Source: Leeuwenhoekiella blandensis MED217 (lineage in GTDB: Bacteria > Bacteroidota > Bacteroidia > Flavobacteriales > Flavobacteriaceae). From it: a DNA stretch of 64,000 nucleotides. The notes beneath the pieces are model-generated. The model saw nothing but the letters and a program-made list of their open reading frames with translations, was not told the DNA's origin and did no database searches. A program made the translations under genes and the position numbers. Within the stretch, counting starts at the first letter, position 1. The number at the start of each line of letters is the position of its first letter. The DNA lies in NCBI RefSeq assembly GCF_000152985.1, contig NZ_CH672395.1:124001-188000 (forward strand), in the 5' to 3' direction. Positions 35,278 through 44,974 of the stretch are shown here, one piece after another.

Positions 35278-36792
<1,515 letters not shown>

Positions 36793-36803
36793 AAATTGAT
36801 TTC

Positions 36804-36865
36804 ATTTCCACGAAGGTGGAAATCTTATCGTATTGATTTGAATAGTTTTCCGCCTACGCGGAAAA
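36804..36865 (+). other. Two tandem 8-bp hairpins between atpD and atpC
   Basis: ATTTCCAC-gaag-GTGGAAAT (36804-36823) and TTTTCCGC-ctac-GCGGAAAA (36846-36865), both perfect stems with tetraloops inside the 89-base intercistronic gap. No T-run follows either, so they look like processing or stability elements rather than terminators. Confidence 0.7.
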
Positions 36866-36881
36866 GATAAATGAAAATTTT

Positions 36882-37160
36882 ATGCATTTAGAAATAGTAA
36901 GCCCTGAAGCAACCTTATATAGCGGAGAAGCTACTTCGGTTATTTTACCGGGAACTGACGGAGCGTTTCAGTTGTTAGACAATCACGCAGCTATCGTTTC
37001 TCTTTTAGAAGAAGGTGTTGTGAAAGTTAAAGGAGCTACGCTTTCAGATAAGGCAAAAAAGCATTTCACTGCCGGTAAAGAAGCTGGTGAGTTTGTACTC
37101 GCTATCAAATCGGGAACGGTTGAAATGAATGATAATAAAGTAATTGTTTTGGCAGATTAA
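36882..37160 (+). CDS. atpC: ATP synthase F1 subunit epsilon
   Basis: 92 residues: the N-terminal beta-sandwich only (LEIVSPEATLYSGEATSVIL, PGTDGAFQLLDNHAAIVSLL), without the C-terminal helical hairpin (~40 residues) that inhibits ATP hydrolysis in E. coli. Short epsilons of this kind are normal in Bacteroidota. Co-transcribed with atpD. A strong terminator follows. Confidence 0.92.
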   Translation: MHLEIVSPEATLYSGEATSVILPGTDGAFQLLDNHAAIVSLLEEGVVKVKGATLSDKAKKHFTAGKEAGEFVLAIKSGTVEMNDNKVIVLAD

Positions 37161-41467: not shown

Positions 41468-42631
41468 ATGCTACACAAGAAATTACAGGATAAACTCAAT
41501 CAACGTCGTGAAGCAAATGCCTTGCGCCAACTGAAAGTACCCAAAGCTGAATGCGTTGATTTTTCCTCTAATGATTATCTGGGGTTTTCTAAAAATCCGG
41601 TTATTTTTTCTCGAGCAAGCGAAATTTTAAAAGAGCAAAATCTAGAGTGGAACGGTGCTGCCGGTTCGCGGTTACTTTCGGGAAATCATAAGCTTTATGA
41701 GCTGACTGAACGTTTTATTGCTAAAATACATCAGGTAGAAGCAGCGCTGATCTTTAACTCGGGTTATGATGCCAATGTGGGGTTTTTTGGATCTGTGCCA
41801 CAGCGCGGTGACGTGATCTTGTATGATGAATTTATTCACGCCAGCATTCGTGATGGCATCCAAATGAGTCACGCAAAAGCCTATAAATTCAAGCACAACG
41901 ATCTAAAAGATCTTGAGCGGCTTTTGGCTAAGCAGGATGAGATGCTGAAACAAGTTCAGCATGACGCCTGTGCTATTTACGTGGTCACGGAGTCGGTTTT
42001 TTCTATGGATGGGGACAGTCCCGATCTTTTAAAGTTGGTAGAGCTATGCGAGCAATTTTCAGCTCAAGTTTTTATTGATGAGGCACACGCCATTGGAGTT
42101 TTTGGTACAGGGATCATCGATGACCTCGGGTTGGGGAATCGTGTTAGCCGACTCGTAACTTTTGGTAAGGCGATGGGGTGTCACGGCGCAGCGATTTTAG
42201 GTTTTGAAATCTTAAAAAGCTATCTCGTTAATTTTGCCCGCAGCTTAATTTACACCACTGCATTGCCACCACATAGTGTGGCGACTATTTTGGCTTCCTA
42301 TCAACACGCGGCGTCTGATGCAAAAAAGCCAAATTCCGCTTTCAAAAAGATGCGCGAAAACATTCAATATTTCCAGAAAGAGCTCAAAAAGCAACAGCTT
42401 GAGGAGTTTTTTATCAAGAGTGATTCGGCGATACACTGTGCAATTCTTCCGGGTAACGCGCGCGTAAAGCAAATTTCAGCAGCATTATTAGATGCAGGTT
42501 TTGATGTCAAGGCCATTCTTTCGCCTACAGTTCCGGCAGGTCAGGAGCGCTTACGAATTTGTTTACACAGCTACAATTCGCAAAGCGAAATACAAACTGT
42601 GCTTTCGCTTCTGGTAAAATCTTTAGAATGA
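41468..42631 (+). CDS. bioF: 8-amino-7-oxononanoate synthase
   Basis: 387 residues. PLP enzyme joining pimeloyl-ACP/CoA and alanine in biotin synthesis. Seen: DFSSNDYLGFSKNP, WNGAAGSRLLSGNHKLYELT, VVTESVFSMDGDSPDL, FIDEAHAIGVFG and the PLP-lysine region LVTFGKAMGCHGAAIL. Between the DLERLLAKQ helix and AIYVVTES the protein carries DEMLKQVQHDAC, encoded by a palindromic repeat (41936-41966) nearly identical to one flanking the GIY-YIG gene. The reading frame stays open, so the enzyme may still work with a short extra loop. Confidence 0.92.
   Translation: MLHKKLQDKLNQRREANALRQLKVPKAECVDFSSNDYLGFSKNPVIFSRASEILKEQNLEWNGAAGSRLLSGNHKLYELTERFIAKIHQVEAALIFNSGYDANVGFFGSVPQRGDVILYDEFIHASIRDGIQMSHAKAYKFKHNDLKDLERLLAKQDEMLKQVQHDACAIYVVTESVFSMDGDSPDLLKLVELCEQFSAQVFIDEAHAIGVFGTGIIDDLGLGNRVSRLVTFGKAMGCHGAAILGFEILKSYLVNFARSLIYTTALPPHSVATILASYQHAASDAKKPNSAFKKMRENIQYFQKELKKQQLEEFFIKSDSAIHCAILPGNARVKQISAALLDAGFDVKAILSPTVPAGQERLRICLHSYNSQSEIQTVLSLLVKSLE
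41936..41966. repeat. REP-like palindrome inside bioF
   Basis: Core ATGCTGAA-ACAAG-TTCAGCAT (41942-41962). The 31 bases match 43653-43683 with one mismatch; the last 26 are identical. It lies in frame in the bioF coding sequence. Confidence 0.85.
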
Positions 42632-42672: not shown

Positions 42673-43293
42673 ATGGAAAAACAAACGTTCTTTATCACAG
42701 GAATTTCTACCGAAGTTGGAAAAACAGTAGCCTCTGCAATTGTAACCGAAGCTTTGGAGGCCGATTATTGGAAACCCATTCAGGCAGGCGATTTAGACTA
42801 TTCGGATACGCATAAAGTCAAAGAATTTGTTGGGAATGACAAAACCGTTTTCCACGATAACGCCTTTAAGATGCGTACGCCTATGAGTCCGCACGCGGCG
42901 GCAGAGATCGATGGCGTTTCCATAAAAGCTTCAGAAATCAAAAGACCGGAAACCGAAAATAATTTGGTTATCGAAGGAGCCGGTGGATTGCTTGTGCCGA
43001 TTAGTGAAACCGAAACGATTCTCGATTTGATTCAGCCGGAAGATAAAGTGATTGTGGTTTCCAGACATTATCTGGGAAGCATCAACCATACGTTGCTTAC
43101 GATTGATAAACTGAAACAAGCCGGTAAAACTATTCACGGAATCCTGTTTAGCGGTGAAGAACATCCCACAACCGAATCGGTCATTGCAAAAATGAGTGGT
43201 GTAGCCATTTTAGGTCGAATAGATGAAGAACCTTATTTTGATAAAATGGTGGTCAAAGAATATGCAGAGCTTTTGAAAGCAAGGCTTCAGTAG
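42673..43293 (+). CDS. bioD: Dethiobiotin synthetase
   Basis: 206 residues. ATP-dependent ureido ring closure of 7,8-diaminopelargonate. P-loop ITGISTEVGKTVASAIVTEA, substrate region YWKPIQAGD, MRTPMSPHAAAEIDG and VIEGAGGLLVPISETETILD. Slightly short of the ~220-residue norm but with all motifs. Follows bioF by 41 bases with its own possible -7 box. Confidence 0.94.
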   Translation: MEKQTFFITGISTEVGKTVASAIVTEALEADYWKPIQAGDLDYSDTHKVKEFVGNDKTVFHDNAFKMRTPMSPHAAAEIDGVSIKASEIKRPETENNLVIEGAGGLLVPISETETILDLIQPEDKVIVVSRHYLGSINHTLLTIDKLKQAGKTIHGILFSGEEHPTTESVIAKMSGVAILGRIDEEPYFDKMVVKEYAELLKARLQ

Positions 43294-43308
43294 GTTGTTG
43301 TTTTTTTG

Positions 43309-43333
43309 GTCACCCTGAACTTGTTTCAGGGTC
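43309..43333. repeat. Left REP-like palindrome of the GIY-YIG unit
   Basis: Stem ACCCTGAA-CTTGT-TTCAGGGT (43312-43332) within GTCA...CTC context. It is the inverted counterpart of 43658-43683, differing only at stem positions that change together (CC/GG against TG/CA). Confidence 0.85.
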
Positions 43334-43355
43334 TCACAAGCAAATGTTGTTAAGT

Positions 43356-43640
43356 ATGAAACAGAGCTATGTTTATATTCTAACCAATACCTACAGAACA
43401 ACTTTTTATATAGGTGTTACTTCAAATTTGCAGCAGCGGATTGTGGATCACAAGGAGAAAAAAGGTTCCGCTTTTACATCAAAGTATAATGTTTGTGATT
43501 TAATTTACTTCGAAGAGTTTTCAGATATTATTCAGGCTATTTCTAGAGAGAAACAATTGAAAAACTGGAAGAAAGATTGGAAATTGAACTTGATCAAGGA
43601 GAAAAACCCAAAACTTCAAACATTGAATATTTTTAGTTAA
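43356..43640 (+). CDS. Small GIY-YIG endonuclease, REP-flanked
   Basis: 94 residues from ATG 43356 (ATG 43344 would add four). Stand-alone GIY-YIG nuclease of the UPF0213/YhbQ-like size class: YVYILTNTYRTTFYIGVTSN (Tyr5-Val-Tyr7, Tyr18-Ile-Gly20), catalytic-type Arg28 (LQQRIVDHKEKKG), His32, Glu65 (ISREKQLKNW) and a C-terminal LIKEKNPKLQTL. All core residues are present, so the enzyme is probably active. It splits the biotin cluster between bioD and bioA and is bracketed by inverted palindromes; no intron or methylase is nearby. Likely role: acting on its own repeats, by analogy only. Confidence 0.88.
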   Translation: MKQSYVYILTNTYRTTFYIGVTSNLQQRIVDHKEKKGSAFTSKYNVCDLIYFEEFSDIIQAISREKQLKNWKKDWKLNLIKEKNPKLQTLNIFS

Positions 43641-43652
43641 AATAAATTACAT

Positions 43653-43683
43653 GATGGGATGCTGAAACAAGTTCAGCATGACG
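43653..43683. repeat. Right REP-like palindrome of the GIY-YIG unit
   Basis: Core ATGCTGAA-ACAAG-TTCAGCAT (43659-43679). Inverted relative to 43309-43333 and nearly identical to the copy inside bioF (41936-41966). Confidence 0.85.
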
Positions 43684-43708: not shown

Positions 43709-44974
43709 TTGAATCTAACAGAACGCGATAAACAACATATTTGGCATCCTTTAACGCAGCATAAACTGCATCCTGAAGCAAAACCTATTGTGAAAGCAAA
43801 GGGCGCATTGTTGTTTGATGAGGAAGGTAAAACCTATGTAGATGCTGTTTCTTCCTGGTATACGGCAATGTATGGGCATTGTAATGATTATATCGTCGAG
43901 CGGGTGCATCGTCAAATGCAGCAGTTGGATCAAATCATTTTCAGCGGATTTACCCACGAGCCGGCGATAGAACTCTCTGAAAAATTGATGGCCATTTTGC
44001 CTGATAATCAGCAGAAGTTGATGTTTAACGATAACGGTTCTACCTCTACCGAAATCGGGATCAAAATGGCCTTGCAATATCATCACAATAAAGGTCAAAC
44101 CCGCAAAACGCTTCTGGCTTTTGAAGAAGGTTTTCACGGAGATACGTTTGGAGCGATGTCTGTGAGTGGTTTGTCGGTGTATAATGGTCCGTTTGAGGAG
44201 TTTTTCATTGATGTAAAACGCATTCCGCTGCCTACCGCAGCTAATCAGGAAGAACTCATAAAAGCTATTGAAGCATTTCACGCAGAAACTCCGCTTGCAG
44301 GATTTATCTACGAACCATTAGTACAAGGTGCAGCAGGGATGAAAATGTATCAGGCAGCGCATCTGGAGCCAATTTTACAGAAATGTAAAGAACTTGGTAT
44401 TATTTTGATCGCTGATGAGGTGATGACCGGGTTTGGCAAAACCGGAAGCTTTTTCGCTTCAGATTTTATTGAAGTGAAGCCAGATGTCATTTGTCTTTCA
44501 AAAGCGCTGACAGCCGGTTTGGTGCCTATGGGCGTCACCACGTGTACACAGGCTATTTTTGATGCGTTTTATGATGATGATATAGGCAAAGGCTTGTTTC
44601 ACGCGCATACCTATTCGGCAAATCCTATTGCTTGTGCTACTGCGATCGCTGCGCTCGACTTGCTTCAGTCTGAAGAAATTCAGCAGAATATAAAACAGAT
44701 TCAAAGCTGGCACGCTGCTTTTGCTTCAGAGATTGTAGAGCATCTCAAAGTGCATTCAACGCGACAACAGGGAACCATTTTTGCCCTAGAGCTTGATGTG
44801 CCGATGGAGCGCTACGGAAACTTGCGTTATCAAATTTATGAGCGCTGTATGGCAGAAGGTGTGTATTTGCGACCGCTGGGATCAACTATTTATATTTTGG
44901 CGCCTTTTGTGACTACTCAAGAGCAAATGCAGAAAGTTTACGCGGCTATTAAAAAGGTTTTAGACAGCTTCTAA
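43709..44974 (+). CDS. bioA: Adenosylmethionine-8-amino-7-oxononanoate aminotransferase
   Basis: 421 residues from a TTG start (43709). Class III PLP aminotransferase making 7,8-diaminopelargonate from the BioF product with SAM as amino donor. Conserved start KQHIWHPLTQHKLHPEAKPI, YTAMYGHCNDYIVERVHRQM, GFHGDTFGAMSVSGLSVYN, IADEVMTGFGKTGSFFAS and the PLP-Lys segment CLSKALTAGLVPMGVTTC. Placed after the inserted GIY-YIG unit; no ATG fits the conserved N-terminus. Confidence 0.93.
   Translation: MNLTERDKQHIWHPLTQHKLHPEAKPIVKAKGALLFDEEGKTYVDAVSSWYTAMYGHCNDYIVERVHRQMQQLDQIIFSGFTHEPAIELSEKLMAILPDNQQKLMFNDNGSTSTEIGIKMALQYHHNKGQTRKTLLAFEEGFHGDTFGAMSVSGLSVYNGPFEEFFIDVKRIPLPTAANQEELIKAIEAFHAETPLAGFIYEPLVQGAAGMKMYQAAHLEPILQKCKELGIILIADEVMTGFGKTGSFFASDFIEVKPDVICLSKALTAGLVPMGVTTCTQAIFDAFYDDDIGKGLFHAHTYSANPIACATAIAALDLLQSEEIQQNIKQIQSWHAAFASEIVEHLKVHSTRQQGTIFALELDVPMERYGNLRYQIYERCMAEGVYLRPLGSTIYILAPFVTTQEQMQKVYAAIKKVLDSF

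Follow-up and report, generated by a model that had tools for sequence, protein, structure and literature searches.

A GIY-YIG endonuclease gene framed by inverted CGTC-type palindromic repeats in Leeuwenhoekiella blandensis MED217: a candidate REPtron-like unit

Repetitive extragenic palindromic (REP) sequences carrying a CGTC tag were surveyed by Di Nocera, De Gregorio and Rocco in 2013 (PMC3733652). According to that survey, these repeats are apparently without a dedicated transposase, tyrosine transposase genes are not flanked by them, and dRS3 corresponds to CGTC-1. We analyzed a 64,000-nucleotide stretch of the Leeuwenhoekiella blandensis MED217 genome (hereafter the window; assembly GCF_000152985.1, contig NZ_CH672395.1, positions 124,001 to 188,000, forward strand), in which an intact GIY-YIG gene of 94 amino acids at 43356-43640 is enclosed by two inverted, tagged hairpin repeats. 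With a probability of about 0.72, we consider this locus to be a REPtron-like unit, in which inverted cognate REPs of the CGTC type enclose the gene of a small GIY-YIG endonuclease.

Small GIY-YIG proteins of the Ssn family, which has many homologues in Neisseria and elsewhere, were reportedly shown by Chenal et al. (Nat Commun 2025) to cut single-stranded DNA in vitro at the cognate repeat of each homologue. Ssn and its NTS repeats are said to have been presented there in the context of natural transformation and for use as a tool. Our literature search returned, among the matches listed, no paper joining bacterial GIY-YIG genes with CGTC-type repeats.

The repeats of the locus share several properties with the CGTC-tagged REP superfamily as described in the 2013 survey (PMC3733652), namely a CGTC/TGTC tag, an 8-bp stem beginning with A-T and a 5-nt (or 4-nt) loop, as well as inverted dimers, heterodimers, intragenic copies and occurrence in Bacteroidetes. 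The tag is unpaired and stands at one end; the stem is 8 bp, where CGTC-type REPs have 8 or 9 bp, and the loop 5 nt, with 4 nt in a sister class; the short unpaired tail, mostly CCA in CGTC-type REPs, is CtCA in class A (hairpin classes are defined below), and CCA occurs in several class B and C copies. What distinguishes them from the CGTC-tagged REPs of that survey is the flanked, class-matched GIY-YIG gene. A second comparison was with REPs and their REP-associated tyrosine transposases (REP-RAYT, or TnpA-REP; PMC8266576, PMC3116915): like REPtrons and REPINs, the present system has a hairpin-associated enzyme gene, tagged repeats, co-evolved pairs and non-autonomous inverted doublets, but the enzyme is of the GIY-YIG type instead of HUH Y1, and the tag is CGTC instead of GTAG. 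The features that define a REPtron-like arrangement, inverted cognate repeats around a gene and co-evolution of enzyme and repeat, were both found.

Anatomy of the locus

The unit consists of three features:
43308..43336, forward strand: left tagged repeat with tag GGTC (consensus CGTC), 8-bp stem ACCCTGAA/TTCAGGGT, loop CTTGT and tail CTCA
43356..43640, forward strand: GIY-YIG nuclease gene encoding 94 aa (98 aa with the in-frame upstream ATG at 43344), recognized by open reading frame (ORF), profile, alignment and fold
43655..43683, reverse strand: right tagged repeat, inverted, with stem ATGCTGAA/TTCAGCAT, loop CTTGT and outward-pointing tag CGTC

Including tag and tail, the repeat is 29 nt long and has the form CGTC, 8-bp hairpin, TCtCA tail. 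An earlier, sequence-only reading of this DNA had described an intact GIY-YIG gene between inverted palindromes. This description was confirmed, both palindromes being perfect hairpins with an 8-bp stem and a 5-nt loop (43312-43332 and 43659-43679). As that reading had also stated, the two stems differ only at two pairs, CC/GG on the left and TG/CA on the right, and pairing is kept. The window contained 11 perfect 8+5+8 hairpins, three of them copies of the locus repeat, whereas 20 runs of a first-order Markov simulation gave an expectation of 1.55. The tag was CGTC in the right copy and in a copy inside bioF, and GGTC in the left copy.

The consensus [CT]GTCAnnCtGAAcTTGtTTCaGnnTCtCA was derived from 266 copies, which were taken from homologue loci and chosen by a GTCA tag plus the inner core. 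Conservation extended from position -1 (C, 0.61; T, 0.29) to position 27 and was at background level beyond both edges. Folded as single-stranded DNA, five such repeats from the three classes (A, B, C) gave z values between -4.1 and -5.5. When tag, inner core and tail were fixed and the remaining stem positions were left free, all three free stem pairs were Watson-Crick in 228 of 246 copies, and the two outer free positions showed ten fully paired types. In the loop, 268 of the 279 class A and C copies had C-G or T-A at positions 1 and 4, and this covariation suggests an apical pair that closes a loop of two bases and leaves one T or A unpaired. Because the copies are related to one another, these pairing counts do not represent independent events. 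Judged from the pairing kept in stem and loop, the fold of the hairpin has been conserved across the family.

Compensatory change had previously been taken to suggest that the hairpin is selected or recognised. Pairing was indeed kept family-wide, but no compensatory event was found at the locus, where two standing stem types meet: CC lies on the left and TG on the right in all five congeners carrying the unit between bioD and bioA, and both types are common elsewhere. A rule that left and right stems always differ was rejected, because 25 of 76 class-A units had the same stem type on both sides, above the permuted mean of 14.2. Differing stems were frequent in the window's own clade (29 of 37), and the arms of exact-core dimers were of different stem type in 15/15 cases (P=0.008; arms transcribed by hand).

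The encoded protein matched PF01541 with E=3.6e-18 (66.1 bits; cut-off 22.6), placing it in the GIY-YIG superfamily. Residues Y7, Y18, G20, R28, E65 and N84, to which we assign the catalytic role presumed for the GIY-YIG family, were invariant in alignments of 15 and of 29 sequences. The structure model had a predicted local distance difference test score (pLDDT) of 93.7, and its top fold match in the PDB was 1zg2 (E 4e-4), followed by Slx1 and UvrC with weaker E-values. The UPF0213 small GIY-YIG proteins (PDB 1zg2 and 1ywl) are also the nearest solved relatives by sequence, yet 1zg2 shares 25% identity with the locus protein. In profile, active-site residues and fold, the protein conforms to a GIY-YIG nuclease. 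Homologues, with starts taken as the ATG closest to the match, had an ATG at the alignment column of 43356. The ratio of nonsynonymous to synonymous divergence (dN/dS) was 0.037, 0.088 and 0.056 in the less saturated pairs, indicating purifying selection.

Matching of nuclease genes and repeat classes

A homologue was found in 104 of the 149 family genomes searched, the family being Flavobacteriaceae as judged from named close relatives. We examined 110 loci (the 30 best matches in these genomes and 80 of at least 575 loci in named genomes), of which 108 had flanks long enough to score. A strict pair was defined as an outward-pointing tagged hairpin on each side within 200 bp, and positions shifted by 1000 bp served as controls. 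Strict pairs occurred at 46/108 homologue loci and at 0/208 shifted controls. After removal of five duplicates, the counts were 43/103 distinct loci and 0/198 controls. The tags were also biased in orientation, with 62 forward and 22 reverse upstream of the gene and 62 reverse and 31 forward downstream.

Sixty further loci were hand-picked from the listed matches, mostly from genomes with several paralogues. Over 169 distinct genes, 102 had hairpins of class A on at least one side, 24 of class B, 9 of class C and 34 of none of the three; these classes were defined after inspection of the data, and the locus sets were best-match or hand-chosen. Left and right classes agreed at 96/96 loci with classed hairpins on both sides within 180 bp, against a permuted mean of 63.6 and maximum of 75. 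On the protein tree, which was built from short sequences and is poorly resolved with many weak forks, class required 7 changes, compared with a mean of 31 and a minimum of 26 in full shuffles. When paralogues were shuffled within genomes (12 genomes with several classes), the mean was 20.9 and the minimum 11, and 0/2000 shuffles were as low as 7. In genome G044, four of seven observed paralogues carried four different hairpin types, each matching between left and right, and the other three had no such pair. On this comparative evidence, the class of the repeats goes with the clade of the nuclease.

The source genome (G000; 4,244,565 bp in one contig) contains 13 GIY-YIG places. The paralogue L004 had the same kind of hairpin on both sides, with one core exact and the other carrying a mismatch, and the paralogue L001 had a different hairpin upstream.

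Homologues at E<=1e-15 were also present in 74 of 299 genomes of a second phylum, that of a Colwellia record. Among the 30 best of these loci, 27 were scored, and strict pairs were found at 8, against 0/54 controls. Five of the eight had the upstream stem ATTCCCGC/GCGGGAAT, which resembles what we take to be the form of CGTC-1/dRS3.

The sequence-only reading had viewed the locus as a REP-like element with a GIY-YIG gene in place of a Y1 transposase. This view was supported: the association of gene and repeats is found repeatedly, is specific to hairpin class and tracks the protein tree, and no Y1_Tnp match was found in the source genome. There was likewise no such match in 10 of the other 16 motif-bearing genomes searched, and the core was present in the fetched flanks of 0/26 Y1 loci. 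A Y1 transposase as hidden mover was left unsupported by these results.

Copies, genomic placement and signs of movement

The 15-nt core was searched for beyond the locus, where its absence had been named as a possible objection. It was present in 10 exact copies in the source genome and in 431 across 64 of the 149 family genomes, with up to 33 per relative genome, so the repeat is multi-copy; the reversed pattern had 0 copies. Exact copies were used genome-wide because the pattern with up to two mismatches was noisy (29 matches versus 15 for the reversed pattern). All 17 genomes with a close homologue (at least 61% identity) carried the core, compared with 47 of 132 others, and it was found in 55 of the 104 family genomes with any homologue match. 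Exact-core dimers at 20-50 nt spacing pointed outward in 15 cases (10 genomes) and inward in 1 across the 149 family genomes; such gene-less inverted doublets are over-represented, as in REPINs. Five of the ten cores of the source genome (L017-L019 and L022-L023) lay within larger shared contexts, and at L022 and L023 the outer stem was incompletely paired.

Further features of the window are as follows:
36801..36868, no strand assigned: two inverted copies of a loop-4 (class B) palindrome with no gene between them, located between ORFs 35284-36792 and 36882-37160
41468..42631, forward strand: bioF-like host gene that carries an intragenic repeat; its best match in NCBIfam is bioF, at 323 bits and under the 426-bit cut-off
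41938..41966, reverse strand: third copy of the locus repeat, in frame inside bioF (hairpin 41942-41962), encoding EMLKQVQHD
42673..43293, forward strand: bioD, upstream neighbour, above the NCBIfam cut-off
43709..44974, forward strand: bioA, downstream neighbour, above the NCBIfam cut-off

The palindromes at 36801-36868 resemble the hairpin adjoining paralogue L001, and this pair may represent a non-autonomous dimer belonging to a sister family. The bioF linker that carries the third copy had the locus repeat in 3/12 genomes. Most of the others, including the close sister G153, had different sequences, several of which resemble imperfect tagged repeats by eye. Over the 11 congeners compared, this linker resembles a hotspot of varied in-frame tagged palindromes that differ even between sisters; in G152, an apparent remnant of the locus repeat (by eye) lies next to another type.

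The bioD-bioA junction was compared in 13 congeners. The unit was present in 5, the junction without the unit was seen in 7, and 1 had another layout. The carriers did not form one clade (p-AU 0.013, approximately unbiased test), so at least two changes, whether gains or losses, are needed. The exact core was absent from the 3.9-4.0 kb fetched in all 7 congeners with the empty junction. Class-A units were found in the bio operon at 17 loci, 4 between bioF and bioD and 13 between bioD and bioA. They span many genera (L043, L044, L045, L048, L049, L052, L053, L054, L056, L058, L060, L114, L115, L116, L121, L125 and L128), and a class B unit adjoins bioA at L067. The earlier statement that the element has landed between bioD and bioA was right about the position, but a recent landing was rejected, as the carriers are not one clade and related units occur in the bio operon of many genera.

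Another unit lies at the start of hisA (which passes its curated cut-off) in the source genome only (1/13 congeners), at L004:1466-2592 (G000:C1 about 2064588-2065714), where congeners have the hisA start codon. The fetched hisA flanks of the other 12 congeners contained no GIY-YIG homologue and no exact core. The hisA ATG is lost, and the GIY-YIG protein and HisA are joined in one open frame of 366 codons, the repeat forming the linker; an in-frame ATG directly ahead of the repeat could act as a new hisA start. In total, 51 related units fell into 21 neighbourhood groups (about 1.4 kb on each side). Between the source genome and G153, synonymous divergence (dS) of the unit was 0.047, compared with 0.24-0.26 in bioD and bioA. 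A recent transfer of the unit between these sisters is possible, but the nearest flanks were also somewhat less diverged.

In a different part of the source genome (G000:C1 about 3602500-3603600; L009:1388-2443), an intact tRNA-Arg(TCG) precedes a tandem array of 3.1 units of 327 bp (98% match). Each unit contains a short GIY-YIG gene of another clade, with an internal stop in one of three copies, together with a repeat of the tRNA's 5' part and a palindrome, ACCTGCCTGCCGGCAGGCAGGT, that is absent from the intact tRNA.

Proposed role of the nuclease, alternatives and significance

We propose that the GIY-YIG protein is the dedicated enzyme of the CGTC repeats and acts on single-stranded hairpins. 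That it acts on its own repeat appears very likely to us; that this action also spreads the repeats is a step we favor by a narrow margin. The protein would bind its own repeat where this forms a hairpin in single-stranded DNA, either on the lagging strand or in DNA taken up, and would cut adjacent to the tag. Repair or re-joining of the cut ends might then spread repeats, dimers and, occasionally, the whole unit, of which the gene-bearing form would be the autonomous one, as proposed for RAYT/REPIN pairs.

Several points weigh against this proposal. Cleavage is deduced from family membership and pairing, spread through cutting is a second step on top of it, and movement is supported indirectly. 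GIY-YIG enzymes hydrolyze DNA, and strand rejoining is not known for them. No clean target-site duplication was readable at bioD-bioA or hisA, where the exact junctions could not be fixed because the empty sites were too diverged, and the polymorphism at bioD-bioA may reflect losses. Among the loci fetched, there were 1 to 3 units per class per genome, unlike a freely spreading transposon, and dN/dS between the source genome and G153 was 0.311, on very few changes. The core was present in 9 of 45 family genomes without a homologue match; one genome (G070) had 25 exact cores, its GIY-YIG proteins being only of UvrC and DnaQ size, and the repeats can therefore persist without the small gene. In the second phylum, 19 of the 27 scored loci, including that of Colwellia itself, had no strict pair. 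Finally, homologues without flanking palindromes, which had been named beforehand as a possible refutation, do exist, as 34 of the 169 had no hairpin of class A, B or C. As a group, these 34 nevertheless showed inverted similarity between their own flanks (mean 11.5) above that between flanks of different loci (8.7; p=4e-9), and some of the shared stretches were other GTCA-tagged imperfect palindromes. Many single cases were at control level, so this similarity is regarded as a lead.

The strongest competitor, which we hold to be a serious possibility somewhat short of even odds, is a role in genome dynamics like that of Ssn. The nuclease would cut repeat-bearing single-stranded DNA, for instance during transformation uptake, and tune recombination, and the repeats would be target marks that the enzyme does not spread. 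It overlaps with the proposed explanation, since the cutting step is common to both. A small GIY-YIG protein and a repeat of this kind are reported for Neisseria Ssn and NTS (dRS3 being CGTC-1 in the 2013 survey), hairpins like dRS3 lie beside second-phylum homologues (the five strict pairs above), and the gene is under purifying selection. Taken alone, however, this role leaves unexplained the inverted repeats around the gene, the dimers of the same layout and the differently matched paralogues within one genome.

The repeats might also have spread otherwise, by recombination or a lost transposase, with GIY-YIG genes homing into existing repeats that served as insertion sites and became their flanks. 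The cores of G070 and weak matches to two PHROG homing-endonuclease families are consistent with homing. We regard it as unlikely, because the 96/96 class agreement and the fit of class to the protein tree would require a long specific partnership, and no exact core was found within the 3.9-4.0 kb fetched at the 7 empty bioD-bioA junctions. Least probable by far is that the hairpins have an ordinary role in the operon, as transcription terminators or mRNA stability elements, and lie close to the gene by coincidence. The unit does lie inside an operon, and its hairpins could work in RNA; however, tag and tail are conserved outside the stem with sharp edges, a copy lies in frame inside bioF, class fits the protein clade and orientation is biased.

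A wider reading can be put forward tentatively, at odds slightly below even. Small GIY-YIG nucleases in general, including the clades beside imperfect GTCA-tagged repeats (GTCATTGCGAGG..., TGAGCTTGTCGAAG... and CTCGAGCGCAGTCGAG...), could serve all CGTC/TGTC-tagged REPs as their dedicated enzymes. They would then form a second kingdom of REPtrons, not based on HUH enzymes, in which palindromic repeats are spread via single-stranded DNA hairpins.

The occurrence of nuclease type and repeats as matched pairs in many bacteria suggests, from sequence comparison, that a common family of bacterial repeats has an enzyme of its own. If the Ssn work holds as reported, the enzyme half of this picture is largely known. 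The present analysis would then add the layout of the flanks over 169 genes, the matching of classes inside single genomes, the assignment of the repeats to the CGTC REPs and the indications of movement. Bacterial genomes widely contain tagged palindromic repeats, and the 2013 survey gave their CGTC half no enzyme (PMC3733652). A matched nuclease for each repeat class would make their origin and spread testable in vitro with one 94-residue protein and a 29-nt oligonucleotide. The results also suggest a rule by which the cognate sites of small GIY-YIG nucleases may be found by reading the flanks of their genes. If the enzyme moves the repeats, two unrelated nuclease folds would have converged on the design of a gene between inverted hairpins.
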